64,000 bases of DNA from Ensifer canadensis (GTDB lineage Bacteria; Pseudomonadota; Alphaproteobacteria; Rhizobiales; Rhizobiaceae), in NCBI RefSeq assembly GCF_017488845.2, contig NZ_CP083373.1, positions 620,001 through 684,000 of the forward strand. The letters are read 5' to 3'. Under the pieces are notes generated by a model, which searched no databases, was not told the DNA's origin, and saw only the letters and a program-made list of their open reading frames with translations. The number at the start of each line of letters is the position of its first letter. Position 1 is the stretch's first letter. A program made the position numbers and the translations under genes. Positions 6,405-26,813 of the stretch are shown in pieces.

Positions 6405-7712
6405 TTATTCCGGGTAGGGGAGGCCATAACGCTCGCGGACCGTTCGCTCTTCATACCGAGTGCGGTAGACGCCGCGATCCTGCAGGATGGGCACGACCTT
6501 GTCGATGAACTCCTCGATATCGTCAGGGGCGCGTGGTGGCTGCAATGTATAGCCATCCACGGTTCCGTCAGCCCAAAGATCAATGATGGCTTCGGAGACC
6601 TCCTCCGGCGTGCCGAGCAGCAGACGGTGATGGCCCTCCGAGCGGCGCACGACTTGTCTTGCCGTAAGCTTCTCGTGTTTCAGCAGGTCCGAGAGCCCGA
6701 GGCCCATGCCCACCGCCTGAAGCCGGTTGGGATCGGGGACGAAGCGTTCGGCATCGAGAACGGCATCCGGGTCAAAGCCGCCAGGATTGATACCGTTCTC
6801 CTTGGCAAACCTCGCGATCAGCGCGTCTTCAGAGCCGGCGCCGCTGAACAGTTCGTGCTTGCGCAACGCCTCCTTTCTTGTCTCACCGAGGATGACCACG
6901 AGCCCGGGCACGATGCGGATGCCGGCCGGATCACGGCCAAGGGCGGCAGCGCGACCTCTGACTTTCGCGCCGAATGCCCGGCCGGCGGCGCGGGAGAGGA
7001 TATTGCAGTAGATAATTTCGCCATGGCGCGCGGCGAGATCAATCCCGCCCTCCGATGCCCCTGCCTGCGCGATTACCGGGTGACCCTGAGGGCCGCGCGG
7101 CACATTGAGCGGTCCCCTGACGCTGAAGTGGTCGCCTTCGTGGTCGATCGCCTGGGCGCTTGCCGCGTCCCAGAACCGATCGTCGGGGACGCTGCCCTCG
7201 CGGGCAGGATCCCAGCTTGCCCAGAGTTTCTTGGCGACATCGAGAAACTCGGAAGCCTTGGCGTAGCGCTCGTTGCGCGGTGGCAGGGGTGCCGAGCCGA
7301 AATTGGCGGCGACATTCGGGTTAAAGGACGAGACGATGTTGATGATCAGCCGGCCGCCGGAAGTGATATCCGTCGACTGGGTGCGGCGAGCCAGATTGTA
7401 GGGTGAGTTGTAGGTGGACGACATCGTCGCCACGAAGCCGATGTCGGGCACCTGTGCCGCCAGGGCCGTACAAAGGATCAGCGGGTCGATCGTGTGGAAC
7501 GGCCGGCTGTTCGGGTCGGTCATCATCGCCGGATGGTCGGAGAAGAACACGGCGTCGAACAGCCCCCTGTGCGCGAGCTCGGTCAGGCGGCGGTAATAGT
7601 CCGGATCGTAGATGTCGTGACGGTCGCCAGTGCGGTATTTCCAGGCGGCCGGCAAATAGCCTGTCGTGTTGATGCCGACATTGAGGTTGAGCTTGCGCGT
7701 CTTGCGGGACAT
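6405..7712 (-). CDS. LLM flavin monooxygenase of the NtaA/SnaA/DszA family
   Basis: About 435 residues, the length of DszA (dibenzothiophene sulfone monooxygenase) and NtaA. These two-component enzymes use reduced FMN and O2 to cleave C-S or C-N bonds. Family signatures include GYLPAAWKY at the N-terminus, ATMSSTYNSPYNLAR, SGGRLIINIVSSFN, ERYAKASEFLDVAKKLWASWD, FSVRGPLNVPRGPQGHPVIAQAG, and the C-terminal VDGYTLQPPRAPDDIEEFIDKVVPILQDRG. It is the last gene of a seven-gene leftward operon with DszB-like and DszC-like genes, which makes an organosulfur substrate more likely than nitrilotriacetate. The ATG at 7712 is preferred over 7721. No dedicated flavin reductase gene was found in the operon; the SDR/NmrA genes do not obviously supply FMNH2. 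Confidence 0.85.
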   Translation of the reverse strand: MSRKTRKLNLNVGINTTGYLPAAWKYRTGDRHDIYDPDYYRRLTELAHRGLFDAVFFSDHPAMMTDPNSRPFHTIDPLILCTALAAQVPDIGFVATMSSTYNSPYNLARRTQSTDITSGGRLIINIVSSFNPNVAANFGSAPLPPRNERYAKASEFLDVAKKLWASWDPAREGSVPDDRFWDAASAQAIDHEGDHFSVRGPLNVPRGPQGHPVIAQAGASEGGIDLAARHGEIIYCNILSRAAGRAFGAKVRGRAAALGRDPAGIRIVPGLVVILGETRKEALRKHELFSGAGSEDALIARFAKENGINPGGFDPDAVLDAERFVPDPNRLQAVGMGLGLSDLLKHEKLTARQVVRRSEGHHRLLLGTPEEVSEAIIDLWADGTVDGYTLQPPRAPDDIEEFIDKVVPILQDRGVYRTRYEERTVRERYGLPYPE

Positions 7713-7727
7713 GCCAATCACTGTCCT

Positions 7728-8378
7728 TCAATAGGCTGCGGTGAAGCGGCGGCGGATGAACTGTCCTTGGTCCAGCTCATCGAGAATGGCGATGGCGAAG
7801 TCGGCCTCCGAAATGCGACTTTCGCCCGCTTCGTCGCGCAACAGCCGGTCTTCGCCAAGCCTGTAGGTGCCGGTTCTCTCGCCGGCCTTGATCGAAAGCG
7901 GCGGAGAGACATAGGTCCAGTCGAGATCGTGTTCGCCGCGCTTCAAGCTGCGCAGGATCTCGCGGTTGCGCAACGTATGGGCCTTGTGTTCGACGGGATA
8001 AAAGTCGCTGTCGACAACGTCGACACCGGGGCTCGCCTCCAGGCTGCCCACGCCGCCGACGATGATGATGCGGCGGACGCCCGCTTGCTTCACGCCGGCA
8101 AATAGCGCCGCGTGGGCATCTCGGATCAGTTCCGCGGCCACTTCTGCGGAATGACGGCGCAAACCTGGGCTATAGGCACTGATGACGGCATCGTGTCCTT
8201 TGACGATGCTTGCGACCGCGCTCGCATCGGCGATATCGGCCTTGCGCAGGGTGAGGCGCTCTTCGGGTTCGATGTCGGTGGACCGGGTGACGGCTGTCAC
8301 ACGACGGCCACGCGACAGCGCCTCCCTGCGGATATTGCTGCCGATGTTTCCGGAGGCGCCGAAGACGACGATGGACAT
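7728..8378 (-). CDS. NmrA/SDR-type NAD(P)-binding reductase
   Basis: 216 residues starting MSIVVFGASGNIGSNIRREAL, a GxxGxxG Rossmann motif. VIIVGGVGSLEASPG-like and DLDWTYVSPP segments place it with the atypical SDR_a5/NmrA group (NAD(P)-dependent oxidoreductase, YwnB-like). Its role may be reduction of a carbonyl intermediate made by the monooxygenases or protection from reactive products. It lies between the FAD monooxygenase and LLM genes, with tight spacing on both sides, in the same leftward operon. Confidence 0.8.
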   Translation of the reverse strand: MSIVVFGASGNIGSNIRREALSRGRRVTAVTRSTDIEPEERLTLRKADIADASAVASIVKGHDAVISAYSPGLRRHSAEVAAELIRDAHAALFAGVKQAGVRRIIIVGGVGSLEASPGVDVVDSDFYPVEHKAHTLRNREILRSLKRGEHDLDWTYVSPPLSIKAGERTGTYRLGEDRLLRDEAGESRISEADFAIAILDELDQGQFIRRRFTAAY

Positions 8379-8397: not shown

Positions 8398-9648
8398 TTA
8401 GAGTGCAGGCACCGACTTTAGCGGCCGGTTTGCCCCGACATTGCGTTGCATGGCTGAGAGCGAGGAGCGGACGGCCTCGTAGCCGTGTTCTCGCATGGCG
8501 TTCTCATAGTCGTGGACGGCTGCGATCAGCGGCTTGTCATGGCGTCGCGCGGCGACGAGCTCGCGAACCAGCAGACCGGTGTCGTAGAGCGCGGTGTTGC
8601 CGCCGAGAGCGCGGAAATAGGTCATCGCGTGGATCGCATCGCCGAGCAGCGTGACCGGACCGGGCTGCCATTTCGCGCCGGGCGTCGAGCTTTTGACCTT
8701 GAGGAAGGCGACCGTCGACGGATCGCTGTGGCGGATGAGCTTCAGGATGCGCTCGTCCCAATGGCCGATACGTTGAAGTAGCGCTTGCAGCAGGCCGGCG
8801 CCATCGAGCGTTTCAAGGAGTTCATCCGGTCCCAGTTCGTCCGTATCGTAAGCGGTGTTCCACCAGGTGTAGCTGGTGGTGTTGTTGAAATGGAAACCGG
8901 GGATGTTGCGATGATCGGGGTCTTCGGCGCCAATGAAATCGTGCCGGGCATAGGCGGCTGGATCGACCCGGTGGCTGGTGATCATCAGGCCACGGCCGTC
9001 GCTCGGGCGGATATTGGTGTTGAACTCGGTAAGAAGCGGTGAGATGTCATGGTGCGCAGCCGCTTCAAGGCTGATCTTGCCCGCCAGGCGCCGAACACCG
9101 GTATCGATGCTCTTCAGATCCGGCAGCAGTTGGCGGCGAACGGCCGACCCCGCACCGTCGGCACCGACCAGAAGGTTGGCGCGGACAGTCGAGCCGTCAG
9201 CAAAATGCGCGATAACCGTGCCGTCTGGGAGCGGTTCATAGCGCTCGAAGCGTTTGCCCGTATGGAACCTGCCCTTCAGCCCGGAAAGAAGGATCTGCCG
9301 CAGCGTGATCCTGCTCACAGACTTTTCGATATGCGTGTCCTCGGTCTCCCGACTTTCGAGCCCGGCATTATCGAGACGCTCGAAGCCCTCGTCGAGAATC
9401 AGGTTCTCGGTCGGGGCAAACCCGAGCGTGTCCAGAAAGACCTGGAAGAGATGCGTCGGCAGATTGGCCTGAAGTGCGTCGATGCCACGCTGGCGGATAC
9501 GCATGCGAAAGCCTTGCACGTAGTCGGCCCGGCCCGGATCGCGTTCGAACACGGCGGCATCGATGCCGTTCTTCTTCAGACCCTGGGCCAGCGCAAGGCC
9601 GCCTGGGCCCCCGCCAATAATGGCGATGTCAACAAAAGAGATGCTCAT
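8398..9648 (-). CDS. FAD-dependent aromatic-ring-type monooxygenase
   Basis: 416 residues of the PHBH/TetX-like class A flavoprotein monooxygenases. The FAD dinucleotide motif is IAIIGGGPGGLALAQGLKKNG at the N-terminus, the central DG motif is LLVGADGAGSAVRRQL, and the GD motif is VTLLGDAIHAMTYFRALGGNTALYD, which binds the FAD ribose/pyrophosphate. These enzymes reduce their own FAD with NAD(P)H and hydroxylate aromatic or other small ring substrates. In this operon it could hydroxylate the desulfurised product or an aromatic organosulfur compound. The substrate cannot be read from sequence. Confidence 0.85.
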   Translation of the reverse strand: MSISFVDIAIIGGGPGGLALAQGLKKNGIDAAVFERDPGRADYVQGFRMRIRQRGIDALQANLPTHLFQVFLDTLGFAPTENLILDEGFERLDNAGLESRETEDTHIEKSVSRITLRQILLSGLKGRFHTGKRFERYEPLPDGTVIAHFADGSTVRANLLVGADGAGSAVRRQLLPDLKSIDTGVRRLAGKISLEAAAHHDISPLLTEFNTNIRPSDGRGLMITSHRVDPAAYARHDFIGAEDPDHRNIPGFHFNNTTSYTWWNTAYDTDELGPDELLETLDGAGLLQALLQRIGHWDERILKLIRHSDPSTVAFLKVKSSTPGAKWQPGPVTLLGDAIHAMTYFRALGGNTALYDTGLLVRELVAARRHDKPLIAAVHDYENAMREHGYEAVRSSLSAMQRNVGANRPLKSVPAL

Positions 9649-9653
9649 GACTG

Positions 9654-10544
9654 TTACTCGCTGAGCGCTGCCTCTGCGGCTGCATGTTCGGAGATGAAGG
9701 CTGCGACACTGCGCGGTGGTCGGCCCAGCAGCGATTTCACGACATCGGTCGTCGTGGCCGCACGACCGGCAGCGATCAACTTCGCGAATTGCGCTATGGC
9801 ACGGTGTTCGAAGTCGGCATCGCCTGATGCCGCCAAAGGGGGCTTCTCGACGACGGCAAACCGCCGCTTCAAAGTCGTCGAGAGCAGATCGGCGAGCTGG
9901 CGCGCGCTGACGATGTCAGGACCGGTGAGATTGAGTGTTCGCCCAGTGACGGTGTCGGCGAGAAGCTGATCGACGGCGACATCGGCGATATCTCGTGCAT
10001 CGATGTAGCCGACACCGGCGTCGGGATTGGCCGCTGCCACCGTATCGGTAGCGATTGCCTGGCGGACGGCGTTGGCGAGCGAGACCTGCATCCAAGCATT
10101 CGGTCGAAGCGAAACGGTATCCAGTGCAAGACTGTTGAGGTGCCGCTCGACAGCGGCGTGGGCATCGCCGGAGATGGAATGACCGGGCGGATCGATGGTC
10201 CAGTCGGAACCTGAGATCTTGACGATGCGCCGGACGCCGGCCGCTAAGGCGGCATCGGCTGCGCTGATCTGATCGGTGACGAGCCTGGCGCTGATGGGCG
10301 ACAGGAGCAGGAGCCGTCCGGCGCCGCGTACCGCGGTATCGAGCGAAGTACGATCGCCGAAGTCGCCGACGGCAATCTGTACGCTTTCGCCAAACAGGCG
10401 GCGTGCGGCATCGGGCCGGCGCGTAAGGATGCGAACCGGTTGTTTCAGAGCGGCCAGCCTCCGAACGATGAGCTGGCCGAGCTTGCCGGTGGCGCCGGCG
10501 ATGATGGTTGTCGCACCGGTGACAGGAACTGCTGCTTTGCTCAT
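9654..10544 (-). CDS. NmrA-family NAD(P)-binding protein
   Basis: 296 residues; Rossmann motif TIIAGATGKLGQLIVRRLAAL, then RILTRRPDAARRLFG and GYIDARDIADVAVDQLL, typical of NmrA/TMR-like atypical SDRs. The open frame extends to 10628, but the ATG at 10544 overlaps the stop of the upstream DszB-like gene (ATGA), which both fixes the start and shows translational coupling. It is the second NmrA-type protein in the operon and is only distantly similar to the first. Confidence 0.8.
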   Translation of the reverse strand: MSKAAVPVTGATTIIAGATGKLGQLIVRRLAALKQPVRILTRRPDAARRLFGESVQIAVGDFGDRTSLDTAVRGAGRLLLLSPISARLVTDQISAADAALAAGVRRIVKISGSDWTIDPPGHSISGDAHAAVERHLNSLALDTVSLRPNAWMQVSLANAVRQAIATDTVAAANPDAGVGYIDARDIADVAVDQLLADTVTGRTLNLTGPDIVSARQLADLLSTTLKRRFAVVEKPPLAASGDADFEHRAIAQFAKLIAAGRAATTTDVVKSLLGRPPRSVAAFISEHAAAEAALSE

Positions 10545-11575
10545 GCGGCCGCCCGCCGTGATGCGGCCTCCAGCGGCCGGTGATCGATCCAGCCAAACAC
10601 GTCGAAGTCGGCCGGAAGGAAGCCCCATTCGAGCAGGAAGCGTTTGAAGTGGTCGAAGGCAGCCAACTGCTCATCGTCGAGTGTCAGCTTGAGATGGCTG
10701 TGGACATCCGGACCATTCGCAGCCCGGATCGCGTCTTCGCCCACGCCGATTTCATTGGCGATGAAGCGCACCGCTTCATTCGGGTTCGCCTCCGCCCATT
10801 CGGCAACACGTGCGACCGTTGCGACAAGGCCCGTGACAAGGTCGAAATGCTCGTCGAGAAATTTGAGGTCGACGGTCAAGGGCCTCGGCGTACCGTTGTT
10901 GATGCGGATCTTTGCATCAGAGTGGAAGCCGAATTCCGAGACGACGACGGCGCCGATCTGATTGGCTAGCACCAAACCTTCGGCACCCTTGACGAAGAAG
11001 GCATCGATCTTGCCGCCCGCCAGCGCCAGAAGCTCGTCGCCGTAGGGATAGCGGCGCTTCAACCCGAGAAACGCGGCATTGCCCCTTTCGATCAGGTTTG
11101 CCTCGCTGCTGTCGAGATAGACCAGTTCGACATCGCGATGGGTGAGCCCCTCAAGCTCCAATGCGGACACGATGCCTTTCAACGCGGTGGCGCGCTGGAA
11201 GTCGACGATGGCTTCATTCGGTTTGCGCGGCACCCCGATGCGCCGGCCCTTCAGATCCGAGCCTTTGGCGATGCCTGAGCCGGGAAGCGCGATGATCGCC
11301 TGGAATTCGTCCGTGGTCGTAATGCCGACCACTCGGGTCTGCCGTCCGCCCGATCGTGCCCAAAGGGGCGGGATGTTGCCACCCTGGCGGAACGAGTGGT
11401 CCAGCGTATGGGTGAAATGGCTCTCGCGGACGGTCTGATCCTTGCTGTCGCGGATCGATCGAACCGCGACACCGGTGGCTTCGAACTGCCGATCGACCCA
11501 GCCGAGTTGGTGGGCGATCGACAGGGGCGTGGGGGCCGGGCAACGGGTGTACCAGACGGAATTGAGTGATGACAT
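10541..11575 (-). CDS. DszB-like desulfinase-family protein (paralogue 1)
   Basis: 344 residues, normally auto-annotated as a sulfonate/nitrate ABC substrate-binding protein. It has no signal peptide and begins MSSLNSVWYTRCPAP. The start is set by an AGGAG seven bases before the ATG at 11575. Against my memory of Rhodococcus DszB (2'-hydroxybiphenyl-2-sulfinate desulfinase), the catalytic Cys27 in SNCPVP matches C12 in TRCPAP. His60 matches H53 in SHFTH, and Arg70 with Gly72-Gly73 matches R63 and G65-G66. The His-to-Arg spacing of exactly ten and the following IPP are the same. This suggests a cytoplasmic C-S bond hydrolase releasing sulfite rather than a transporter subunit. It sits between DszC-like and NmrA genes. 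Substrate unknown; gate residues differ from DszB, so dibenzothiophene is not implied. Confidence 0.75.
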   Translation of the reverse strand: MSSLNSVWYTRCPAPTPLSIAHQLGWVDRQFEATGVAVRSIRDSKDQTVRESHFTHTLDHSFRQGGNIPPLWARSGGRQTRVVGITTTDEFQAIIALPGSGIAKGSDLKGRRIGVPRKPNEAIVDFQRATALKGIVSALELEGLTHRDVELVYLDSSEANLIERGNAAFLGLKRRYPYGDELLALAGGKIDAFFVKGAEGLVLANQIGAVVVSEFGFHSDAKIRINNGTPRPLTVDLKFLDEHFDLVTGLVATVARVAEWAEANPNEAVRFIANEIGVGEDAIRAANGPDVHSHLKLTLDDEQLAAFDHFKRFLLEWGFLPADFDVFGWIDHRPLEAASRRAAA

Positions 11576-11585
11576 CGCGAGGCTC

Positions 11586-12818
11586 CTAGCTGCGGCCGAC
11601 AACGGCAAGGCGGGGTTGTTGATGGGTGCGAACCGGCACCGGCTCCAGCGGCAGCGCCGGGGCAGCGGCGTGCCGGCTGAGTGCCGCCTTGGCGAGCATC
11701 GTGCGGATCAGGTTGTTCTGCGGCGCATGGGCCTTGCCGGACAGCGCATCGCGGTGGTGACGCTCCAGCGGGTTGTCGCGGCTGATGCCGGGATTGCCGC
11801 CGAGTTCCAGTGCAAGCGTGGTTGCGGCGATCGCATTCTCGATGACGGTGTGCTTGACCGCCGCCGCATCCGGGCCGAATGGCCGACCGGCGTCGAAATC
11901 CTCGGCAATAGACCGGAGCAGCCGGCGATTGACCGTCAGCAGGACCTCGATCTGGCCGAGCCCGTCCTGGATGCGCGGCACGGTGGAGAGCGGTGCGCCG
12001 AGGCTTGTGGGTGCCCGCGTGGTGGTGAACTCGATCAGCCAGTCGCGGGCGCCGCGCGCAGCACCGTCGTAGATCGCTGGCACAAGGCTGAAGTACCAGG
12101 CGCCCATGCGTTCGTCGCGTTTCAGGCCTTCGCTCGCGGGCGCTATATCAAGCACATCCTCCACCGGAACGGCGACGTCGTCGAGGATCAGATCGTCGCT
12201 GTTGGTGGCGCGCATGCCGGTGGCGTTCCAGGTCTTTTCGACGCGAATGCCGTCGGCGGACGTCGGCACGAGAAACGACCCGAGGCGCGGCACCGGCTCG
12301 TCGGTAACGGCGAGCACGGCGACCCAACGCAACAGCGGAATGCCAGTCGCATAGGTCTTGTGGCCAGTAATCCGCCAGTGATCGCCGACCCGGCGCGCGA
12401 TGGTCTCCGGTAAAGAGCCGTGTGACGGAGATCCGACACGCGGTTCGACCTGCGCAGCATTGATCAGCGCCACGCCCTCGCGGTTGGCCTTGATCACCCG
12501 TTCGACAAGATGCTCCGGCCATTTGCCCGAGGTGCGCAGCGAATAATGCTGGTTGTAATGCATCGAGAGAACGAGCGCTGTGGACGGCTCGCCGCGGGCA
12601 ATCGCCGAGACGACCGAGAGCGCTTCGGTCAATCCGCCGCCCAGACCGCCTTGCTCCGTCGCGGTCACGAGGCCGAGCAGCCCGGCTTCGTGAAGCGCAT
12701 CGAAATTGGCGAAGGGAAATTCGCCGGTTTCGTCATAATGCCGGGCGGTCAGCGCAAAGCGCTTTCCCAAGTCCTCGGCCCTTTCAATCGCCAACTCGAT
12801 TTCAGTTGCGGCGGTCAT
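11586..12818 (-). CDS. DszC/SfnC-like acyl-CoA dehydrogenase-fold monooxygenase
   Basis: 410 residues with the acyl-CoA dehydrogenase fold: an N-terminal helical part (LGLVTATEQGGLGGGLTEALSVVSAIARGEPSTALVLSMHY), a central beta domain (WRITGHKTYATGIPLLRWVAVLAVT, WNATGMRATNSDDLILDDVAVP) and a C-terminal helical bundle. It lacks an obvious acyl-CoA dehydrogenase catalytic Glu context and fits the DszC/SfnC/FMNH2-dependent group D monooxygenases, which oxidise sulfides or sulfones. It is flanked on both sides by DszB-like genes within the same operon, the arrangement expected for an oxidise-then-hydrolyse desulfurisation pathway. Confidence 0.8.
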   Translation of the reverse strand: MTAATEIELAIERAEDLGKRFALTARHYDETGEFPFANFDALHEAGLLGLVTATEQGGLGGGLTEALSVVSAIARGEPSTALVLSMHYNQHYSLRTSGKWPEHLVERVIKANREGVALINAAQVEPRVGSPSHGSLPETIARRVGDHWRITGHKTYATGIPLLRWVAVLAVTDEPVPRLGSFLVPTSADGIRVEKTWNATGMRATNSDDLILDDVAVPVEDVLDIAPASEGLKRDERMGAWYFSLVPAIYDGAARGARDWLIEFTTTRAPTSLGAPLSTVPRIQDGLGQIEVLLTVNRRLLRSIAEDFDAGRPFGPDAAAVKHTVIENAIAATTLALELGGNPGISRDNPLERHHRDALSGKAHAPQNNLIRTMLAKAALSRHAAAPALPLEPVPVRTHQQPRLAVVGRS

Positions 12819-12830
12819 CGGCTTCTCCGG

Positions 12831-13871
12831 TCAGGCAACGGCGCGTGTTTCGAGATCGGCCCAGGGACGACGATCAACCCAGGCTTCGATGTCGAAGTTC
12901 TGGGCAAGGAAGCCCCACTCGTGCAGGAAGTCCTTGTAGTGACCGATCGCGTCCACCAGCTCAGGCTCGAGACCGATCCCAAGATGGCGATGCAGGTCCG
13001 GGCCGTTGGCGGCGGCGACGACCTCTTCGGATGCGCCGACTTCGCGGGCAACGAAGCGGCGCACGTCATCCGGATGCGCTTCGGCCCAGGCGCTTGCGCG
13101 CTTGAGGGTCTCGATCAGCTTTGTCACCAGATCGGGCCGGTCCTCTGCCAGCCGCTCGTCGACCGTCAGGATGCGTGGTGAGCCCGAATTGATGCGGATT
13201 TTGGGGTCGGGGTGGAAACCGAACTCGGTCACGGTATGGGTGGCAAAAAGGTTGGCGACGCTGATGCCGGGCGTGCCCTTGACATAGATTGCATCGACAT
13301 CGCCGCGAAGGAGCGCTGCGATTTCAGGGCCATAGGCCTGCCGGTTGCGCAGGCCGTAGAGCTGAGGTCCGTCTCGATTGTCGAGCACGGTATCTTCAAG
13401 CGGGATGTCGACGATTTCGACATCCGTATGCGTCAGCTCTTCGAGCGACAAAGCAGAGACAAGGCCCTTCAGAGCGGTAGCCGCCATGAAGTCGACGATG
13501 CCGGGAGGGCGCCGGGCAATGCCGAAGCGACGGCCGACAAGTTCCCGCGTCGTCTTGATGCCCGTTGCCGGCAAGGTGATGATGGCCTGGAACTCATCGG
13601 TCCAGGTAATGCCGACGAGCCGCGTCGGATTTCCTTCCGAACGGGCGCGGATTGGCGGGACGTTGCCGCCGTGGCGAAACGAGTAATCCAGATGATGGTT
13701 GAAGTGGCTGGACCGGATCGTCCGGTCCTTGCTGTCGATGATGGAGTTGAGGGTGATGCCCTCGCTGGCAAAGGCTTCGTCGAGCAGACCCAGCTGCGTC
13801 GCAAGGCCGACCGGGGTCGGGACCGGGCAGCGGGTATACCAGATTTGTGAGATAGTGTTCCTGCGCGTCAT
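12831..13871 (-). CDS. DszB-like desulfinase-family protein (paralogue 2)
   Basis: 346 residues, clearly paralogous to the product of 10541-11575 (shared IWYTRCPVPTP, IDSKDRTIR, HLDYSFRHGGNVPP, VGITWTDEFQAIITLP, KIRINSGSPR). No signal peptide is present. The putative catalytic set is again complete: C15, H56, R66, G68-G69, with the DszB His-to-Arg spacing. Between Cys and His both paralogues carry eight more residues than DszB as I remember it. It is the first gene of the leftward operon, with its start 293 bases from the divergent dppB-like gene. Two DszB-like copies around one DszC-like gene suggest two substrates or a heteromer. A substrate-binding protein that lost its leader is the alternative. 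Confidence 0.75.
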   Translation of the reverse strand: MTRRNTISQIWYTRCPVPTPVGLATQLGLLDEAFASEGITLNSIIDSKDRTIRSSHFNHHLDYSFRHGGNVPPIRARSEGNPTRLVGITWTDEFQAIITLPATGIKTTRELVGRRFGIARRPPGIVDFMAATALKGLVSALSLEELTHTDVEIVDIPLEDTVLDNRDGPQLYGLRNRQAYGPEIAALLRGDVDAIYVKGTPGISVANLFATHTVTEFGFHPDPKIRINSGSPRILTVDERLAEDRPDLVTKLIETLKRASAWAEAHPDDVRRFVAREVGASEEVVAAANGPDLHRHLGIGLEPELVDAIGHYKDFLHEWGFLAQNFDIEAWVDRRPWADLETRAVA

Positions 13872-14164: not shown

Positions 14165-15151
14165 ATGCCGGCTTTGATCAGAATTGTCAGAACGCTGCGA
14201 CGCACGCTGGTCCAGGCAATTCCGACGCTGCTCGGGATCATCATCCTCAACTTCTTCCTGCTGCAGCTGGCGCCGGGAGATGCTGCCGACGTGCTTGCCG
14301 GCGAGGCGGGTTCGGCAACCGAGGAAAGCGTGGCAGCACTCAGGGCCCGCTTCGGGCTGGACAGCCCGGTGCTGGAGCAACTGGCGACATACCTCAACAA
14401 TCTCGCGCATTTCAGTCTGGGATTTTCGCCGCGCTACGGCATGCCAGTCGCCGACCTGATCGCCCAGCGCCTACCGGGCACCTTGACTCTGATGGCGGTG
14501 GCGCTCGTCATCGCCATCTTCCTCGGCGTCGTTCTAGGATCCTTGATGGCGACATTTGCCGGACGTCTTCCCGATCGGCTGCTCTCGGTCTTCTCATTGC
14601 TGTTCTACTCGATCCCGAGCTTCTGGATCGGCCTGATGCTGATCGTCTTCTTCTCGGTCAAACTCGGCTGGCTGCCAAGCGGCGGCTCAGGCACCATCGG
14701 CTCGCGGCTCACAGGCTGGCCGGCACTGCTCGACACGGCGCGCTATATGGTGCTGCCGGCGACGTCGCTCGCGCTTTTCTACGTGGCGATCTATGCCAGG
14801 CTGACGCGGGCCTCCATGCTCGAAGTCAAAAACCAGGATTTCGTCCGCACCGCCTATGCCAAGGGACTGACGCCGTTCGGCGTTACTGCCAGGCATGTGC
14901 TGCGCAATGCCCTGATCCCGATCACCACCATGGCCGGCATGCACATCGGCGGCATGCTTGGCGGTGCCGTCGTGGTCGAGACGGTTTACAGCTGGCCGGG
15001 GCTCGGCAGGCTCGCCTTCGAAGCGGTCATGGGCCGTGATTTCACGGTGCTGCTCGGCATCCTCCTGTTGTCCTCGCTTCTCGTCATCATCGCAAACGCT
15101 GCCGTGGACCTCGTTCACGCCTGGCTCGATCCTCGAATTGGAGCACGCTGA
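14165..15151 (+). CDS. DppB-type ABC permease
   Basis: 328 residues, inner-membrane permease of the peptide/nickel/opine family. Typical start: LVQAIPTLLGIIILNFFLLQLAPGD with the first transmembrane helix, then ALRARFGLDSPVLEQLATYLNN. The EAA loop region is RLTRASMLEVKNQDFVRTAYAKGLTPFGVTARHVLRNALIP, which contacts the ATPases. It forms a heterodimer with the next gene. The operon is B-C-D-F and lacks a binding protein gene; the most likely partner is the Tat-exported protein at 25188-26813. The divergent dsz-like operon suggests import of an organosulfur compound rather than peptides. Confidence 0.88.
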   Translation: MPALIRIVRTLRRTLVQAIPTLLGIIILNFFLLQLAPGDAADVLAGEAGSATEESVAALRARFGLDSPVLEQLATYLNNLAHFSLGFSPRYGMPVADLIAQRLPGTLTLMAVALVIAIFLGVVLGSLMATFAGRLPDRLLSVFSLLFYSIPSFWIGLMLIVFFSVKLGWLPSGGSGTIGSRLTGWPALLDTARYMVLPATSLALFYVAIYARLTRASMLEVKNQDFVRTAYAKGLTPFGVTARHVLRNALIPITTMAGMHIGGMLGGAVVVETVYSWPGLGRLAFEAVMGRDFTVLLGILLLSSLLVIIANAAVDLVHAWLDPRIGAR

Positions 15152-16158
15152 TGTCCTCGACCGGTGTCGGAGCACTCCGCAATATTCCAGGCGCCACCTA
15201 TGCGCCTGCGACAGAAAATGAGCAGCCTGCCGGGGTTGCGCCGACGGAGGGCCCGGCCTGGTCCAACGTGAAGGCGCCGGACGCGCGCTCCCAGCAAAGT
15301 GCGACGATCGCAATTACCAATGGGCGACGCGCCATGAGGGTCTTCTTCGCCAATCCGAACGCGCTGTTCGGTACTGGCTTTCTCGGCCTCGTCATCGCCG
15401 TCGCGCTTCTGGCGCCCGTGTTTTTCCCCGACGACCCGCTTTCGATGGTGGGGCGGCCGTTCCTGTGGCCGGGACAGGATCCGGCCTTTCCTCTCGGAAC
15501 GGATTCGCTGGGACGCGACGTGCTATCAGGCATCCTGCACGGCTCGCGCATCTCGCTGTTTGTCGGGCTGACGGCGACCGCACTCGGGCTGACGTTCGGC
15601 GTTCTGGTTGGCGCAGTTGCCGGCTATTTCGGCGGCTGGGTCGACGATATTCTCGTCAGGCTCGTTGAGATCTTCCAGACGCTGCCGAGCTTTGTCCTTC
15701 TTGTCGTCCTGGTGGCGATCGCCCAGCCCTCGGCGACCACCGTGACGCTTGCGATCGCCGTCATCTCCTGGCCGACCGTGGCACGGTTGACCCGCGCCGA
15801 GTTCCGCGCAATCCGCGAGAAGGACTTCGTCATGGCTGCCCGCAGCCTTGGCTTCGGCCATGCCCGCATCATTTTCCGCGAGATCCTGCCGAACGCCTTG
15901 CCGCCGATCATCGTCACGTCGTCGGTCATGGTCGCGACCGCCATCCTGATGGAATCGGCATTGTCCTTCATGGGGCTCGGCGATCCGAATGTGGTCAGTT
16001 GGGGCTCGATGATCGGGACCGGCCGAGAGCTGGTCAGAACCGCCTGGTATCTGACGGCACTGCCTGGGCTTGCGATTGTCTTCACGGTGCTGGCGCTCAA
16101 CCTCATCGGTGACGGATTGAACGACGCCCTCAATCCCCGCTTTTCGCAGGATCGTTGA
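15151..16158 (+). CDS. DppC-type ABC permease with long N-terminal tail
   Basis: 335 residues. The permease core begins near residue 62 ([30 protein letters not shown]), preceded by an unusually long, Ala/Pro/Thr-rich, probably cytoplasmic extension. The [22 protein letters not shown] motif and the EAA loop ([33 protein letters not shown]) are family hallmarks. The start overlaps the upstream stop (TGATG), supporting the long form; initiation at the internal ATG at 15334 is possible. Confidence 0.85.
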
Positions 16159-16160
16159 CG

Positions 16161-17159
16161 ATGGCTCCCTTGCTTCGGGTCGAAAACCTCACCATCGGCT
16201 TCCCACGTGCAGAACCGGTTCGCAACCTCTCCTTCGAGGTTGCTCAGGGCGAGACGCTTGCGATCGTCGGGGAATCCGGATCCGGAAAATCCCTGACCGC
16301 GCTGGCTTTGATGCAGCTGCTGCCGCGCGCGGCAAGGGTGACGAGCGGCCGTATCACGTTCGGCGACCGCGACCTGCTGGCACTCGATGCGCGCGAGATG
16401 CGGCGCCTGCGCGGGCGCGAGATCGCCATGATCTTTCAGGAACCGATGACCAGCCTCAATCCGGTGATGACGATTGGCGGTCAGATCGGCGAAGTGCTGA
16501 AGGTTCACGAAAGGCTTTCGGGAAAAGCGGCGCGGGCGCGCGCTATCGAACTCCTGCAGCTGGTCCGTATTCCGGGAGCCGACAAACGGGTCGACGACTA
16601 TCCGCACCAGCTGTCCGGCGGCATGCGCCAGAGGGTGATGATCGCGATGGCGGTCGCCTGTCGGCCGAAGCTACTGATCGCCGACGAGCCGACCACCGCC
16701 CTTGACGTCACGATCCAGGCGCAAGTGCTCGATCTGCTCGACACGCTCAGGCGCGAGCTACAGATGGCCGTTGTGCTCATCACTCATGATCTGGGTGTGG
16801 TTGCGCAATGGGCCGACAGGGTAGTGGTGATGTATGCAGGCCGTAAGGTGGAGCAGGCACTGCCGGCAGACCTCTTCAAGGATCCGCTGCACCCCTACAC
16901 GCGCGGGCTGCTTGCCGCTTCGCCGCGGTTGAAGAACGATTTCCACTATCGCAACGGCGCTTTGACCGAAATTCCAGGATCGATCGTCTCGGCGGTGGGC
17001 GAGGCGGGCTGTCCCTTCAGGCCGCGCTGCGCCCAGGCGCGGGCGAGCTGCGGCCACCATATCCCGCCCTTGACCGCCCCGGCACCCGATCGCCTCGTTG
17101 CCTGCCCCTTCACCTCGTCCATCAAGGCCGTGCCCGATGCCCTTGCTCTCAGCCACTGA
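16161..17159 (+). CDS. DppD-type ABC ATPase
   Basis: 332 residues. Walker [10 protein letters not shown]-loop [11 protein letters not shown], signature LSGGMRQR, Walker [13 protein letters not shown] and H-loop [10 protein letters not shown] are all present. The C-terminal oligopeptide-transporter domain carries the Cys pattern [14 protein letters not shown] seen in DppD/OppD, where cysteines can bind a Fe-S cluster. It energises uptake through the DppBC-type permeases upstream. An ATG at 16161 is used; 16155 would add two residues. Confidence 0.88.
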
Positions 17160-18081
17160 CCTCAAGACCCACTACCAGAGCCGTGATGGGCTTCTGCGCT
17201 CTGTCGATGGCGTCGATCTTCGCGTCGAGCGCGGGGAGACGGTGGGGCTGGTGGGTGAAAGCGGCTGCGGCAAGTCGACCCTCGGCAAAACTCTTCTTCG
17301 GCTGGTTGATCCGACCGAGGGGCGGATCGAATTCAAAGGCGAGGACATCACGCTCATCGACCAGCGGCGATTGAGGAGCGTGCGCAAGTCGATCCAGATG
17401 ATTTTCCAGGATCCGTTCGCGTCGCTCAATCCGCGCCACACGATCGGTGAAATTCTCGAAGCGCCGCTGGTGGTGCACAAGGCAGGCGGGAGCATGGAGC
17501 GACGGCGGATCGTCGCCGGCATCGTATCGAAAGTCGGGTTGCCGGCCGATGCCATCAACCGATATCCGCACGAGTTTTCCGGCGGCCAGCGACAAAGGAT
17601 CGGCATCGCCCGCGCGCTGTTGCTCAATCCGGAGCTGATCGTCTGTGACGAACCTGTCTCGGCCCTCGACCTCTCGATCCAGGCACAGATCCTCAATCTT
17701 CTGGTCGAGATGAAGAAGGAATTCGGCCTTTCCTACATCTTCATCAGCCACGACCTTTCAGTGGTGCGCTACTTCTGCGACCGGGTGATGGTCATGTATC
17801 TCGGCAGGATCGTCGAAAGCGCAGACAACGAGACGCTGTGGTCCGATCCGCGCCATCCCTATACGCGTGCTTTGATGGAGGCGGTGCCCGATCCATCGCG
17901 CCCGCGCCACGCCGCCCCGCTTGGCGGTGATCTGCCGAGCCCCAGCAACATTCCTTCCGGCTGTCGGTTCCACACCCGATGCCCATTGGCGGCGGATCTG
18001 TGCCGCACCGCCGAACCCGAATTCCGCTTCATAGCACCACGCCACGAGGTGGCCTGCCATTTTGCGGACAGCATCAACTGA
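17137..18081 (+). CDS. DppF-type ABC ATPase
   Basis: 314 residues with Walker [10 protein letters not shown]-loop [12 protein letters not shown], signature FSGGQRQR, Walker [13 protein letters not shown] and H-loop ISHDLSVV. The C-terminal extension has [16 protein letters not shown]. The ATG at 17137 overlaps the upstream gene by 23 bases; the in-frame GTG or other starts back to 17098 would give an unlikely Pro-rich leader. It forms the ATPase heterodimer with DppD. Confidence 0.87.
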
Positions 18082-18095
18082 AATGGAGATTTTAA

Positions 18096-19157
18096 ATGGT
18101 TGAGTATCGTTATCTCGGGCGCAGTGCCCTCAAGGTATCACCGCTGACACTCGGGTCCATGATGTTCGGTAACCAGACGCCTGATGATGTGGCCTTCCGC
18201 ATCATCGACAAGGCACGCGAACAGGGCATCAACTTCATCGATACGGCCGACGTCTATCACGACGGCAAGTCGGAAGAGGTGGTCGGGCGTGGCATCAAGG
18301 CCGACAGGGATCACTGGGTGCTGGCGACCAAGTTCGTCAATTCGCACAAGAAGGGACCCAACCTCGGCGGCTACTCGCGCAAATGGGTTTACCAGACGGT
18401 CGAGAACTCACTGCGCAATCTCGGCACCGATTACATCGACATCCTCTATTTCCATCGCGCCGTGTTCGACGCGCCGCTGGAGGAGCCGGTCAGGGCTATC
18501 GCCGATCTGATCAAGGCCGGCAAGTTGCGGTATTTCGGCGTCTCGAACTTCCGCGGCTGGCGCATTGCCGAGATCGCGCAGCTCGCCGATGAACTCGGCA
18601 TCGACAGACCGGTCGCAAGCCAGCCGCTCTACAACATCGTCAACCGCACGGCGGAGGCCGAACAATTGCCGGCGGCAGCCGCCTATGGGCTCGGCGTCGT
18701 CACCTACAGCCCGCTGGCGCGCGGCGTTTTGACCGGCAAATACAATGTAGGCGAGGCACCTGGCGCTGATACGCGGGCGGGCCGCGGCGACAAGCGCATG
18801 CATGACGTCGAATTCCGCGACGAATCCATCGCGATTGCCAAGCAAATCGCTGCACACGCTCAGGCGAAAGGCATTCCCGCCGCGGATTTTGCGCTCGCCT
18901 GGGTCCTGAACAACCGTCTCGTCACCTCGACCATCGGCGGACCGCGGACCGAAGAGCAATGGGACGGCTATGTCCGTGCGCTAGACGTGAAGATCGATGC
19001 CGATGACGAAGCCCTGGTCGACCGGCTGGTCGCTGCTGGCCACCCATCGACCCCCGGTTTCACCGACCCTGGCCATCCGCTCGAAGGCCGGCTGCCGCGC
19101 TTTGGCGCGGCGGAGGCAGAGATCATTCCGCTCACACGGGCGCAGCGCGTCGCCTGA
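18096..19157 (+). CDS. aldo/keto reductase
   Basis: 353 residues, a TIM-barrel NADPH-dependent carbonyl reductase. It shows the AKR signature INFIDTADVYHDGKSEEVVG, with catalytic Asp and Tyr, then VLATKF with the Lys and DIL(Y)FHRA with the His. GVSNFRGWRIAEI and the cofactor-binding TIGGPRTEEQWDGY at the C-terminus complete the pattern. Closest in style to YajO/TAS-type potassium-channel beta-like AKRs. It follows dppF after 14 bases with a GGAGA site, so it is the last gene of this rightward operon. It may reduce an aldehyde or ketone released from the imported compound. Confidence 0.88.
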   Translation: MVEYRYLGRSALKVSPLTLGSMMFGNQTPDDVAFRIIDKAREQGINFIDTADVYHDGKSEEVVGRGIKADRDHWVLATKFVNSHKKGPNLGGYSRKWVYQTVENSLRNLGTDYIDILYFHRAVFDAPLEEPVRAIADLIKAGKLRYFGVSNFRGWRIAEIAQLADELGIDRPVASQPLYNIVNRTAEAEQLPAAAAYGLGVVTYSPLARGVLTGKYNVGEAPGADTRAGRGDKRMHDVEFRDESIAIAKQIAAHAQAKGIPAADFALAWVLNNRLVTSTIGGPRTEEQWDGYVRALDVKIDADDEALVDRLVAAGHPSTPGFTDPGHPLEGRLPRFGAAEAEIIPLTRAQRVA

Positions 19158-19550: not shown

Positions 19551-19776
19551 TGGTGCGCCACAGCTGATGGTAGGCCCTCTTACTTGAGCCAACAACTTCT
19601 TCGGTGGATCGGCATCTCTACGGACGACAGTCGAACCGCCCAAAACCAAACCAAAAATGGCAACCCCAATTATCGAGATGGTACATTCGGACGACAGGTT
19701 CTCGTTTCGACGATGAGCGGCGGGCTGGATACAGCGCTGCACATGTACAGCGACGGCCGTGATTGTGCGACCCACC

Positions 19777-23481: not shown

Positions 23482-23485
23482 TTTG

Positions 23486-23653
23486 CTATACTTTGCTCAG
23501 AGCATCCCTTAGCGGCTCCACCAAGTTTTCCGCGATCTTGCGATAGATCTCCGGTGAGAAGCCGCCGGTGGGCTTGGCGCATCTTCCGCCTGGCCCCCAA
23601 GCCGGCGGCCAGAGATGGACATGGATGTCGACGATATCGAGCGGTGCGGTCAT
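23486..23653 (-). pseudogene. 5' fragment of an amidohydrolase gene
   Basis: Starts with ATG at 23653, overlapping the stop of the upstream LLM gene by four bases (ATGA), so it was translationally coupled to it. It reads MTAPLDIVDIHVHLW and continues to about residue 50 (IYRKIAENLVEPLRDALSK) before a stop at 23486. DIHVH is the first metal-ligand motif of amidohydrolase_2/ACMSD-type enzymes. The C-terminal part of a same-family protein lies in the same orientation at 19245-19550. The roughly 150 residues between them, by comparison with a usual length near 300, are missing. Confidence 0.75.
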
Positions 23654-24750
23654 TCGGCGGCTACCTTTCTGGCTTCGCGCTCGGCAATGCCGGCTTTGAC
23701 GAGCGGCACTACGTCCCGTCCGTAGGTCACGGTGTCCTCGGTCGGGTAGAAGCCGCGCACGAGGAAGTTGGAAACGCCGGCGTCGTAATAGTCGAGGATC
23801 GCGTCTGCCACCTGTTCCGGCGTCCCGACCAGAGCGGTCGAATTGCCACCCGCCCCGCTTGCCTCGGCGACCTCGGTCCACAGCCGCTTGTCCAGCACCT
23901 TGCCGCGTTTGGCAGCCTCGCGCAGGCGCACCGAGCCGGCGTTCGAGGGTAGCTTCTCGCCGTTGCCGCCGGCCGAACGCGCTACCTGCGACTTCACTTT
24001 CTCAAGGATATCGCCGGCCTTTGCCCATGCGGCATGTTCCGTCTCGGCCACGACGGTGCGGAAGGCGAGGGTGAAGCGGACGTCACTGGCCGACCGGCCA
24101 TTGGCAATAGCGGCTGCACGCACCTTGGCGATTGTCTCTTTCGCTCCGTCCAGCGGTTCGCCCCAGAGCGCATAGATATCGGCGTGTTTGCCGGCGACCG
24201 CGATCGCGGCATCCGACGAGCCGCCAAAGGAGATCGGGATGCGCGGCTTCTGATAGGGCTTGACCTGGCTGAAGGCGCCCTTGAACTTGTAGAAGCGTCC
24301 TTCGTGGTCGAAGGGCTCGTCGCTCTCCCAGGTCTTCTTCAGCACCGACAGATATTCGTCGGTGCGGGCATATCGGGTGTCATGATCCTCGAAATCGCCA
24401 TCGCGAGCCTGGTCGCTGTCGGACCCGCCGGTGATGATGTGCACCCATAGGCGACCCTCGGAGAACTGGTCGAGCGTTGCGAGCTGCCGGGCGCCGAGCG
24501 TCGGAGCCATCAGGCCAGGCCGATGGGCAAGTAGCGCCCCGAGCCGCTGTGTCTGGCCGAAGACGAAGGCGGCGATCTGGTTGTTGTCTGGCCACTGTGC
24601 GAACTGGCCGATCAACAGCCGGTCTATGCCGGCGGCTTCCGCTGCCTGCACGTGACTGCGAATATACGCCTTGTCGATGATCGGGCCGGTCGCCGGAACG
24701 ATATCGGATCCCTCCCTGTTGGACGTGTGGCCGATGAATTCTGATGACAT
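23650..24750 (-). CDS. SsuD-like LLM flavin monooxygenase
   Basis: 366 residues, near the 380 of alkanesulfonate monooxygenase SsuD, a reduced-flavin-dependent enzyme releasing sulfite from sulfonates. Matching segments include ATLDQFSEGRLWVHIITGGSD, GDFEDHDTRYARTDEYLSVLKKTW, PISFGGSSDAAIAVAGKHADIYALWGEP, and at the C-terminus NSTALVGTPEQVADAILDYYDAGVSNFLVRGFYP. The ATG at 24750 (MSSEFIGH) is preferred over one seven codons upstream. It is the first gene of a leftward unit whose second gene, the amidohydrolase, is now split. No ssuE-type reductase is visible nearby. Sulfonate versus sulfone or other C-S substrate cannot be decided. Confidence 0.87.
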   Translation of the reverse strand: MSSEFIGHTSNREGSDIVPATGPIIDKAYIRSHVQAAEAAGIDRLLIGQFAQWPDNNQIAAFVFGQTQRLGALLAHRPGLMAPTLGARQLATLDQFSEGRLWVHIITGGSDSDQARDGDFEDHDTRYARTDEYLSVLKKTWESDEPFDHEGRFYKFKGAFSQVKPYQKPRIPISFGGSSDAAIAVAGKHADIYALWGEPLDGAKETIAKVRAAAIANGRSASDVRFTLAFRTVVAETEHAAWAKAGDILEKVKSQVARSAGGNGEKLPSNAGSVRLREAAKRGKVLDKRLWTEVAEASGAGGNSTALVGTPEQVADAILDYYDAGVSNFLVRGFYPTEDTVTYGRDVVPLVKAGIAEREARKVAAE

Positions 24751-25187
24751 CGAAAACTCCTTGAAACTCACAGTCAGCGTTACTCCTTAGTCTATTTAAT
24801 AGATCGATAATGTCGATTGCGTTTTGGGTGGCGATCTTGGGATGAGTTTTCAACGGCTTGCCAATGTCGGGATTTTTCGTTCAACCTCCTGCCCTGGGAC
24901 GGTGGCCCATGCATCTGGTACCAGGAAGGAGATGGACATGCCCGCCGATGACCGTCGCCGCCATTCATCAGAGGATGTCCAAACCTCGTAAATTTGAGAG
25001 AGCATGGCTCCGACGTGAGATATTCCGTCGCGGTGTCCGCGGCCGTGCAGCATTTTCCAAAAGCCAGCGTGACTTTAGAAATCTATTATCACCATAAATT
25101 TGATAGATTATATATCGTGAAGCGGATCACCCAATGATGGGTGCACGAAAAGAAACCAGCGCTCTGCGTCTGCTTGGGGATATCCAG
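24751..25187. promoter_or_regulatory. divergent promoter region with AT-rich inverted repeats
   Basis: 437 bases between the SsuD-like gene and the binding-protein gene, markedly AT-rich at both ends. CTATT-T-AATAG at 24792-24802 is a short palindrome near the leftward gene. AATCTAT (25080-25086) and ATAGATT (25103-25109) form a 7-bp inverted repeat near the rightward gene. Both share a TCTATTA-like core, suggesting one regulator acting in both directions. No adjacent regulator gene. Confidence 0.45.
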
Positions 25188-26813
25188 ATGACATCAACAC
25201 CTATCAGCCCACCGAAACCGACACGCCGCGCCTTTCTGCTCTCTTCCGTTGCGTTGGCGGCCGTCGTCGCCGTCGGGGCTATTCCGGAGATCTCGTTTGC
25301 CGCGGAAGAGCCGACACGCGGCGGTAGCGTCTCGATCAATATCGGCACCGAACCGCCGGTCCTTGTTCTGATCGCCCACAGTGCGGGCGCTGCCTACTAT
25401 ATCAGCGGCAAGGCGACCGAAAGCCTGCTGACTTATGACCGTGACTTCAATCCTCAGCCCTTGCTGGCGACCGAATGGACGGTCAGCGAGGACGGCCTGC
25501 GCTACTGGTTCAAGCTGCGCCAGGGTGTTCGCTGGCATGACGGGAAGGATTTCACCGCCGAGGATGTCGCTTTCTCGATCCTCGCGTTGAAGGAAAACCA
25601 TCCGCGCGGGCGGGCGACATTCGCCCACATCCAGAAGGCAAACGTCCTCAACACGCATGAAGTTGAGCTGATCCTCTCCAAGCCCGCTCCCTACCTTCTG
25701 ACGGCCTTTGCAAGCTTCGAAGCCCCAATCGTGCCGAAGCATCTCTATGAAGGCACGAAGATCGCCGAGAACCCGCACAATGTCGCGCCTGTTGGCACAG
25801 GACCCTACAAGTTCGTCGAATGGGTGCGCGGCAGCCACGCGCTTTTTTCGCGCAACGAGGACTATTGGGGATCTCCGAAGCCCTATCTCGACCAGATCAT
25901 CTTTCGCTTCATCATCGATCCGGCGGCAGCGGTTGCCGCGATCGAGACCGGTGAAGTGCAAGTCTCCACCGCCAACTTGCCGCTGACCGATATCGAGCGC
26001 CTGAAGACGAACCCCAATCTCGTCGTCGATACCGATCCGGCGCCCTATTCGCCGAGCATCGCCCGAGCCGAGTTCAACCTCGAGAACAAGTATCTGGCCG
26101 ATATCAAGGTGCGTCACGCGATCGCCCATGCAGTCGACAAGGACTTCATCGTCAACACCGTCTATCTCGGCTATGCGACGCGACTGGACGGTCCCGTCAG
26201 TCCCGACCTTGCGAAATTCTACACGCCGGACCTCCCGAAGTACGAGTTCGATCCTGCCAAGGCGGAGAAGCTCTTGGACGAGGCCGGCTACGCGCGAGGC
26301 GCCGACGGTTTCCGCTTCAAGCTGTTCATCGATCCCACTCAGCCCTCCGGCCCACCCAAGCAGACGGCGGAGTATATTGCCCAGGCGCTTGCCAAGGTCG
26401 GCATCAAGGTTGAACTGCGCACCCAGGACTTTGCGACCTTCGTGAAGCGGGTCTTCACCGATCGCGATTTCGATATCGCCATCGAAGGCATGAGCAATCT
26501 TTACGATCCGACCGTCGGCGTGCAGCGCTTATACTGGTCGAAGAACTTCAAACCGGGCGTGCCTTTTACCAACGGGTCTAAATATTCCAACCCGGAAGTC
26601 GACCGGCTCCTCGAGACCGCCGCCGTCGAAATCGATACCAGGAAACGGTTGGAGCTCTTCAACGCGTTCCAGAAACTGGTCGTGGAGGATCTGCCCACGC
26701 TCGACATCGTCACCCCGGCGGTGATCACCGTCTACGACAGGCGGGTGAAAAACCTAAAGCTGGGTGTCGAGCATCTCTGGGCCAACGGTTCCGACATCTA
26801 TCTCGACGAGTGA
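25188..26813 (+). CDS. family 5 ABC binding protein, Tat-type leader
   Basis: About 541 residues. The leader contains PTRRAFLLSSVALAAVVAVGA, a twin-arginine motif followed by a hydrophobic stretch and AFA-like cleavage region, so export by Tat is likely. The mature part shows family 5 hallmarks: PLLATEWTVSEDGLRYWFKLRQGVRWHDGKDFTAEDV, VGTGPYKFVEW and VRHAIAHAVDK. These proteins carry peptides, nickel chelates or opines. The ATG at 25188 has a GGGGA site eight bases upstream and gives the correct leader. It is probably the missing partner of the BCDF transporter at 14165-18081. A DszC-like gene follows in the same direction. Confidence 0.87.
   Translation: MTSTPISPPKPTRRAFLLSSVALAAVVAVGAIPEISFAAEEPTRGGSVSINIGTEPPVLVLIAHSAGAAYYISGKATESLLTYDRDFNPQPLLATEWTVSEDGLRYWFKLRQGVRWHDGKDFTAEDVAFSILALKENHPRGRATFAHIQKANVLNTHEVELILSKPAPYLLTAFASFEAPIVPKHLYEGTKIAENPHNVAPVGTGPYKFVEWVRGSHALFSRNEDYWGSPKPYLDQIIFRFIIDPAAAVAAIETGEVQVSTANLPLTDIERLKTNPNLVVDTDPAPYSPSIARAEFNLENKYLADIKVRHAIAHAVDKDFIVNTVYLGYATRLDGPVSPDLAKFYTPDLPKYEFDPAKAEKLLDEAGYARGADGFRFKLFIDPTQPSGPPKQTAEYIAQALAKVGIKVELRTQDFATFVKRVFTDRDFDIAIEGMSNLYDPTVGVQRLYWSKNFKPGVPFTNGSKYSNPEVDRLLETAAVEIDTRKRLELFNAFQKLVVEDLPTLDIVTPAVITVYDRRVKNLKLGVEHLWANGSDIYLDE

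Follow-up and report, generated by a model that had tools for sequence, protein, structure and literature searches.

The window analysed here is a 64,000-nucleotide stretch of Ensifer canadensis (contig NZ_CP083373.1, positions 620,001 to 684,000; host genome of 8.09 Mb), and our subject is a pair of its genes, A and B, whose products are putative relatives of the sulfinate desulfinase DszB. Both genes belong to a minus-strand operon of seven tightly packed genes that runs from 13871 to 6405 in the order A, ACAD1, B, an NmrA-like gene, a flavin adenine dinucleotide (FAD)-dependent monooxygenase, an NAD-binding protein and LLM1. Successive genes are separated by 12 bp, 10 bp, an ATGA overlap, 5 bp, 19 bp and 6 bp. 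On the plus strand, diverging from the A operon, a set of four genes for an Opp-type transporter is followed by an aldo/keto reductase gene (14165-19157). All features are listed in Table 1; for B, an in-frame upstream TTG at 11608 offers an alternative start and a length of 355 aa.

Table 1. Features of the A/B locus in the window, with product names assigned by comparison (ABC, ATP-binding cassette; FMN, flavin mononucleotide)
Feature	Position	Strand	Basis or key residues
Protein A, putative DszB-like desulfinase, 346 aa	12831..13871	-	Thr13, Cys15, His56, Arg66, Gly68-Gly69
Protein B, putative DszB-like desulfinase, 344 aa from ATG 11575	10541..11575	-	Thr10, Cys12, His53, Arg63, Gly65-Gly66
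ACAD1, acyl-CoA-dehydrogenase-fold flavoenzyme	11586..12818	-	profile scores and nearest solved structures 5z8t/5gj7
NmrA-like NAD(P)-binding protein	9654..10544	-	its ATG overlaps the B stop codon (ATGA)
FAD-dependent monooxygenase	8398..9648	-	PF01494, FAD_binding_3
NAD(P)H-binding protein	7728..8378	-	PF13460
LLM1, NtaA/DmoA-family FMN-dependent monooxygenase	6405..7721	-	TIGR03860 above cut-off
Conserved dyad TTGAC-N5-CTATAG-N5-GTCAA	14058..14083	.	divergent promoter region
OppB-type ABC permease	14165..15151	+	profile scan
OppC-type ABC permease	15151..16158	+	sequence by eye and synteny
OppD-type ATPase	16155..17159	+	sequence by eye and synteny
OppF-type ATPase	17098..18081	+	sequence by eye and synteny; real start possibly further in
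Aldo/keto reductase	18096..19157	+	profile scan, synteny
LLM2, SsuD/MsuD-like monooxygenase	23650..24771	-	below curated cut-offs
SBP_bac_5 solute-binding protein	25134..26813	+	profile scan
ACAD2, SfnB/DszC/MsuC-like flavoenzyme	26880..28103	+	below curated cut-offs

DszB was the best PDB match by phmmer for both proteins (E 2e-13 for A, 1.1e-10 for B). Predicted models of A and B have the type II periplasmic-binding-protein (PBP-II) fold and are nearest to DszB, and superposition of the whole predicted fold on DszB agrees with the residue alignment for Cys, His and Arg. Shared with DszB (PDB 2de2, 2de3) are this fold, the set Cys27/His60/Arg70/Gly72-Gly73, the helix bearing the His, and flavin monooxygenase neighbours. 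Cys27 of DszB corresponds to Cys15 in A and Cys12 in B, and equivalents of His60 and of the RXGG motif (Arg70, Gly72-Gly73) are present in both: A reads TRCPVP, His56, Arg66, Gly68-Gly69 and N-VPP, and B reads TRCPAP, His53, Arg63, Gly65-Gly66 and N-IPP. A first-pass annotation, made from the letters of the window, had named A and B as two DszB-like paralogues and listed this catalytic set with its spacings. The paralogue assignment is borne out by the PDB match, the predicted fold and the family-wide residues, and the Cys, His, Arg and Gly-Gly stand as described in both proteins; the IPP said to follow them is VPP in A.

Conservation was assessed in 58 relatives, divided by profile score into a desulfinase-like class (at least 84 bits) and a binding-protein class (at most 76 bits), with DszB the lowest scorer of the upper class. 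Of the 31 desulfinase-like rows, which include A, B and DszB and reach down to ~27% identity, every one has the His, the Arg and the two Gly, and 27 have the Cys, the other four having Ser. The 27 binding-protein rows, in which one protein occurs twice (L016, L122), have Cys, His and Arg in 0/27, Gly69 in 15 and Gly68 in 2, a contrast that is partly by construction because the classes were split by profile score. Left out of the count were L009 (its match starts at residue 68), the contig-end fragments L013 and L014, duplicates of window or counted rows (L001, L002, L115, L125), and genome-search places without a locus. The full catalytic set was found in 118/120 A homologues (the best 120 of 927) and 118/120 B homologues (the best 120 of 885); in the remaining four the N terminus is missing. 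Residue conservation in homologues and structure prediction were among the checks proposed in the first-pass annotation, and at the level of aligned residues and whole fold they favour its reading.

The earlier claim that A and B lack a signal peptide also holds, as none was found in either protein by an open-frame and hydrophobicity check. The open frame of A starts just 9 codons upstream of its ATG (355 versus 346 codons), leaving no room for a leader. In the predicted models the first strand spans residues 9-14 of A and 6-10 of B, immediately ahead of Cys15 and Cys12. Upstream of this strand, the 12-residue hydrophobicity maximum is at most 1.1 in all 25 measurable desulfinase-like rows (of 31), compared with at least 1.7 in 27/27 binding-protein rows. 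Both proteins match NMT1/THI5 in Pfam and, weakly, SsuA, and their scores on the SsuA-family model TIGR01728 (68.4 and 70.7 bits) do not pass its cut-off of 163.5.

A and B differ from DszB in some residues and in their setting. Following strand 4, they have an Asp-Glu pair (A residues 89-96, T-x-T-D-E-F-Q-A; Asp92-Glu93) that is not in DszB and is widely kept in the desulfinase-like rows (Asp 26/31, Glu 25/31); possibly it is part of the pocket lining and governs which substrate is taken. Y63 and Q65 of DszB are replaced by His59/Leu61 in A and His56/Leu58 in B. Together, the pair and the altered positions suggest a substrate unlike biphenyl sulfinate. The middle region is shorter than in DszB, and there are two copies, in an operon adjoining an Opp-type importer and an aldo/keto reductase. 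Set against DszB in the strict sense, that of the dibenzothiophene 4S pathway, A and B lack both the Y63/Q65 identity and partners orthologous to DszA and DszC.

Three profile models match ACAD1 below their cut-offs: DszC with 44 bits (cut-off 850), SfnB with 104 and acryloyl-CoA reductase, its best NCBIfam match, with 110. Its nearest solved structures are 5z8t/5gj7 (229 bits; our literature search found no paper on their function), with the DszC structure at ~40 bits, and its low DszC score and nearest structure leave ACAD1 unsupported as a true DszC. ACAD2, at 114.6 bits against the same cut-off, is the better DszC relative of the locus. Thus the earlier statement that A and B flank a DszC-like gene is right as to the single gene between them, but its DszC match is weak. 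LLM1 is nearest to the ethylenediaminetetraacetate (EDTA) monooxygenase structure 5dqp, followed by MoxC/YtnJ, with the DszA-type 5tlc lower down; EDTA monooxygenase is a C-N-cleaving enzyme. The proposed operon with a DszA-family enzyme therefore survives as a tight operon with an NtaA/DmoA-family member, but one whose nearest structure is of another kind.

Beyond the coordinates of the first-pass annotation, the segment 23650-28103 (LLM2, SBP_bac_5, ACAD2) continues the conserved locus to its distal end. Its SBP_bac_5 protein likely works with the Opp-type importer. The ~4.0 kb of the window that separate the aldo/keto reductase from LLM2 (~19521-23533) have no match in Ensifer adhaerens L112, whose corresponding gap measures ~0.56 kb; the open reading frames 19777-20658 and 21172-22371 in this stretch have no Pfam match.

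To describe the surroundings of A more widely, we scanned reference genomes, obtained 233 coding places and retained the 80 closest, together with at most 10 kb of flanking sequence to either side; the resulting counts lean to near relatives, and some loci are ended by contig ends. All four Opp genes are present in 77 of the 80 loci, as are the aldo/keto reductase and an SBP_bac_5 protein (at least 50%); ACAD1 adjoins A in 72, ACAD2 occurs in 69 and any LLM match in 68. B (at least 70%) lies within ~10 kb of A in 17 loci, all of which also carry NmrA and LLM1, and no such B is found in the other 63. This evidence for A without B is soft because B may lie further off, as in four Agrobacterium-like genomes where ~15-19 kb separate it (62-65% to window B) from A and an NmrA-like gene adjoins it. 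A separate search of 297 genomes of the family, with at most seven candidates scored in each so that absences are soft, gave full-length A-type genes in 7 and B-type in 6, with none of the 297 having full-length B without A; a partial match (G102) and a contig-end fragment (G120) are excluded from these counts. In this whole-genome search, G128 alone had full-length A and no B, with 7 of its 11 candidates scored. The pattern fits an importer/ACAD1 module to which A belongs and an NmrA/LLM1 module to which B belongs, fused here into one operon.

Among the matches listed, Ensifer holds the closest named relatives of A, at 97% in E. canadensis and in E. adhaerens Lc04. Relatives occur as well in Devosia, Chelatococcus, Sphingobium, Acetobacter, Kaistia and Pseudomonas, so that the earlier description of a rhizobial family was too narrow. 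The same annotation held that these enzymes are hidden as binding proteins. Most relatives among the matches listed are indeed named 'ABC transporter substrate-binding protein', but for some entries the name is already 'desulfurase' or '2'-hydroxybiphenyl-2-sulfinate desulfinase'.

We built a quick maximum-likelihood tree of 67 rows with SH-aLRT support and six binding proteins as outgroup. The A clade (support 94) and the B clade (99) are sisters (98), and the clade holding both is set apart from the outgroup (99). DszB falls inside this wider clade, but its exact position is unsure, its branch being very long and the program giving a long-branch warning. From Pseudomonas-type sequences, ten Ser copies were included, and they form one clade (100) inside a set of their own (100), apart from A and B. 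Among the best 120 of 863 relatives of the Ser copy (P0241-P0360), 72 have Ser and 48 have Cys at the catalytic position. Cys and Ser copies are adjacent in four genomes (G351, G355, G435, G672); in the pairs L118/L127, L119/L128, L120/L129 and L116/L126, one copy has Ser for Cys with the His and RXGG kept. One inspected pair adjoins SsuD- and SsuC-like genes that score below curated cut-offs.

The divergent promoter region carries a conserved dyad. The window copy has one mismatch to a 26-base sequence typed from related loci and none to its core. The core, with up to three mismatches, occurs within 600 bp of OppB in 78/80 loci and across families, the exceptions being L114 and L077, the second of which lacks an OppB within range; the match in L051 is poor, though inside the three-mismatch limit. 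The dyad stays with OppB even where a binding-protein gene stands between OppB and A. Within the host genome and S. meliloti pSymA, this locus is the sole site of the perfect 14-base pattern TTGACWA-N12-TWGTCAA, which pSymB lacks. Allowing one mismatch adds a single site each in the host genome and pSymB, with none for a reversed-pattern control; at up to two mismatches the 16-base core likewise marks no other place in the host genome or pSymA, and its reversed control hits the host genome and pSymB once each. We had considered the dyad as a mark of a sulfur regulon, which is unsupported, the pattern being nearly confined to this locus in the replicons searched. Because its perfect form occurs only here, it looks instead like a local promoter or operator.

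A connection to sulfur comes through S. meliloti, whose orthologous locus (L032, with A at 1,178,362) has the same divergent layout, with five genes on one side and seven homologues on the other; in an annotated strain a NUDIX hydrolase gene comes next on the seven-homologue side. On pSymA, two divergent operons, the five-gene sma2085-sma2077 and the eight-gene sma2087-sma2101, are reported to be specifically induced upon deletion of pSymB 635,940-869,642 (PMC5940162). These are apparently the operons of this locus. The ACAD1 orthologue on pSymA of strain 1021 (L032 21055-22283) lies in two pieces in different frames and looks frameshifted, and the gene count there is therefore uncertain. By profile search, the 234-kb deletion would remove a sulfate importer. 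The sole pSymB match to TIGR00971, which we take to be the sulfate-binding protein, is at 771,909-772,835, within the deletion, and the sole match above cut-off to TIGR00968, presumably the sulfate ATPase, is at 769,419-770,138. pSymA carries another TIGR00971 gene, ~1.5 kb away from its ACAD2 orthologue, and the window genome has two above cut-off, both on another contig. A sulfur-scavenging role predicts induction of the locus upon loss of a sulfate importer, which matches the S. meliloti pattern.

We read A and B as DszB-type sulfinate desulfinases that have a periplasmic-binding-protein fold and work in the cytoplasm without a cofactor, with a probability of roughly 0.77. Sequence kinship, predicted fold, residues, absence of a leader, tight gene order and conservation are what the analysis shows; the chemistry, pathway, substrate and role in sulfur starvation we infer. 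An Opp-type importer would bring an organosulfur compound into the cell, where its oxidation to a sulfinate would fall to flavin monooxygenases (ACAD2, ACAD1, LLM1 and the FAD enzyme). A or B would then close on the sulfinate, with a helix bringing in His56/53 and with Arg66/63 and the Gly-Gly loop touching the sulfinate, and the Cys proton would displace SO2 at the carbon, yielding sulfite and a desulfurised molecule. The sulfite would feed sulfur assimilation under sulfate shortage. An aromatic or vinylic sulfinate would suit such a Cys-proton mechanism; the FAD monooxygenase of the operon would fit an aromatic compound, yet just 21/80 loci have it.

Several points weigh against this reading. 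Identity of A and B to DszB is just ~24-29%, the DszB branch is very long, and the Y63/Q65 changes and the Asp-Glu pair mean that substrate and details must differ from those of DszB. RXGG has been assumed to be structural, and calculations have R70 and G73 raising, not lowering, the barrier (PMC6100217), so that conservation of the motif alone is not proof of catalysis. The nearest structure to LLM1 is a C-N-cleaving enzyme; a gene of the LLM1 type is present in just 29/80 loci and the FAD enzyme in just 21/80, and 12/80 have no LLM match, some of these having ended early. For S. meliloti, the equation with sma2077-2101 rests on gene number, divergence and approximate position, the induction could stem from loss of a repressor within the same 234-kb deletion, and sulfur is unmentioned in the text of PMC5940162.

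The names that most of the listed relatives carry would make A and B ordinary binding proteins of a sulfonate-type ABC importer, mis-started or unusually exported, and their PBP type 2 fold and their NMT1/THI5 and weak SsuA matches are what such proteins would show. We rejected this explanation on the leader and residue evidence and hold it to be very improbable: nine codons upstream of A are too few for a leader, upstream hydrophobicity separates the 25 rows from the 27 binding-protein rows, and the catalytic set, complete in A and B, is lacking in the latter. Besides, the Opp importer already has its own SBP_bac_5 protein at the locus. The first-pass preference for desulfinases over binding proteins is thus upheld by sequence, predicted structure, family-wide residues, the missing leader and the flavin monooxygenase neighbours. 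It is also unlikely, though less so, that A and B are PBP-fold enzymes with another leaving group or reaction, such as a decarboxylase-like enzyme or a lyase; 4,5-dihydroxyphthalate decarboxylase, MqnD and Thi5 are among the structural matches, and the family's Asp92-Glu93 and the kinship of LLM1 with EDTA monooxygenase would suit such a reaction.

Within the desulfinase reading, each of A and B probably has a sulfinate of its own as substrate. Two substrates or a heteromer had both been suggested, and we favour two substrates, on soft evidence, because A and B form separate clades, 63/80 loci have no nearby B, and B is 15-19 kb off, beside an NmrA-like gene, in four genomes. That A and B form an obligate heteromer, or that one regulates the other, is rather doubtful. 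They do share an operon with a single gene between them, the Pseudomonas-type pair has a Ser-for-Cys copy, and full-length B was never seen without A in the 297 genomes within the candidates scored, but both window copies retain the full catalytic set, A occurs without B in G128 (7/11 candidates scored), and DszB is described as a monomer (PMC4839641). The absence of a nearby B from 63 loci also speaks against a heteromer, though B may be farther away.

Compared with other named systems, the sampled SsuA/TauA sulfonate-binding proteins (2x26, 3ksx, 3uif, 6ssy) have leader-like stretches and are without the Cys, His and Arg. Of the scavenging genes ssuD, msuD, msuC and sfnB, LLM2 resembles SsuD/MsuD and ACAD2 resembles SfnB/DszC/MsuC. 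The SsuD, MsuD, MsuC and SfnB routes release sulfite oxidatively from sulfonate, whereas A and B would free it from sulfinate without a cofactor. BdsA, the desulfinase of Gordonia terrae bdsABC, is up-regulated with benzothiophene in place of sulfate; compared by description, it shares with A and B flavin monooxygenases and adjoining transport genes, but it is actinobacterial and single-copy, with a sulfonate-type transporter (PMC3868597). In a dibenzothiophene-desulfurising Chelatococcus sp., DszB peptides were reported, and the quoted peptide matches Rhodococcus DszB (PMC4839641). Chelatococcus belongs to the same order of Alphaproteobacteria as the window, and C. asaccharovorans has relatives at 85% (A) and 83% (B) among the matches listed. 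A study of sulfolane degradation found no dszB in its genome (PMC6395730). A Polaromonas paper was discarded as a desulfinase source, the word occurring there just in a cited reference on a cysteine sulfinate enzyme.

The active-site type is already known, and some database entries already carry desulfinase names. Several findings seem new: how far the family extends, the grouping of A and B in modules with an Opp-type importer, the conservation of the dyad, the connection with deletion of a sulfate importer, and the Ser clade. In excerpts of the open-licence literature (PMC6395730, PMC3868597, PMC11852219, PMC6100217, PMC4839641, PMC6015842) we found no biochemically characterised rhizobial or pseudomonad member, and the desulfinases described there come from thiophene-desulfurising pathways. 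DszB is the slowest step in biological desulfurisation (PMC6100217).

We tentatively propose, at somewhat less than even odds, that leaderless DszB-like desulfinases form a broad and often mislabelled sulfur-scavenging branch. It would be a cofactor-free 'sulfinate exit' beside the 'sulfonate exit' of SsuD, serving natural soil and plant organosulfur compounds and not fossil-fuel thiophenes. The branch would have been duplicated at least twice independently, as A and B in rhizobia and their relatives, for two substrates, and as the Pseudomonas-type Cys/Ser pair, whose Ser copy would be a natural counterpart of the inactive C27S mutant and maybe a sensor, carrier or regulatory partner. These natural Ser copies are a ready test of the role of the catalytic Cys. 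If the proposal is true, many 'ABC transporter substrate-binding protein' labels would need correction, and many soil and plant-associated bacteria would hold members of a large family sharing this active site, which would offer more enzymes and a clue to the purpose for which they evolved.

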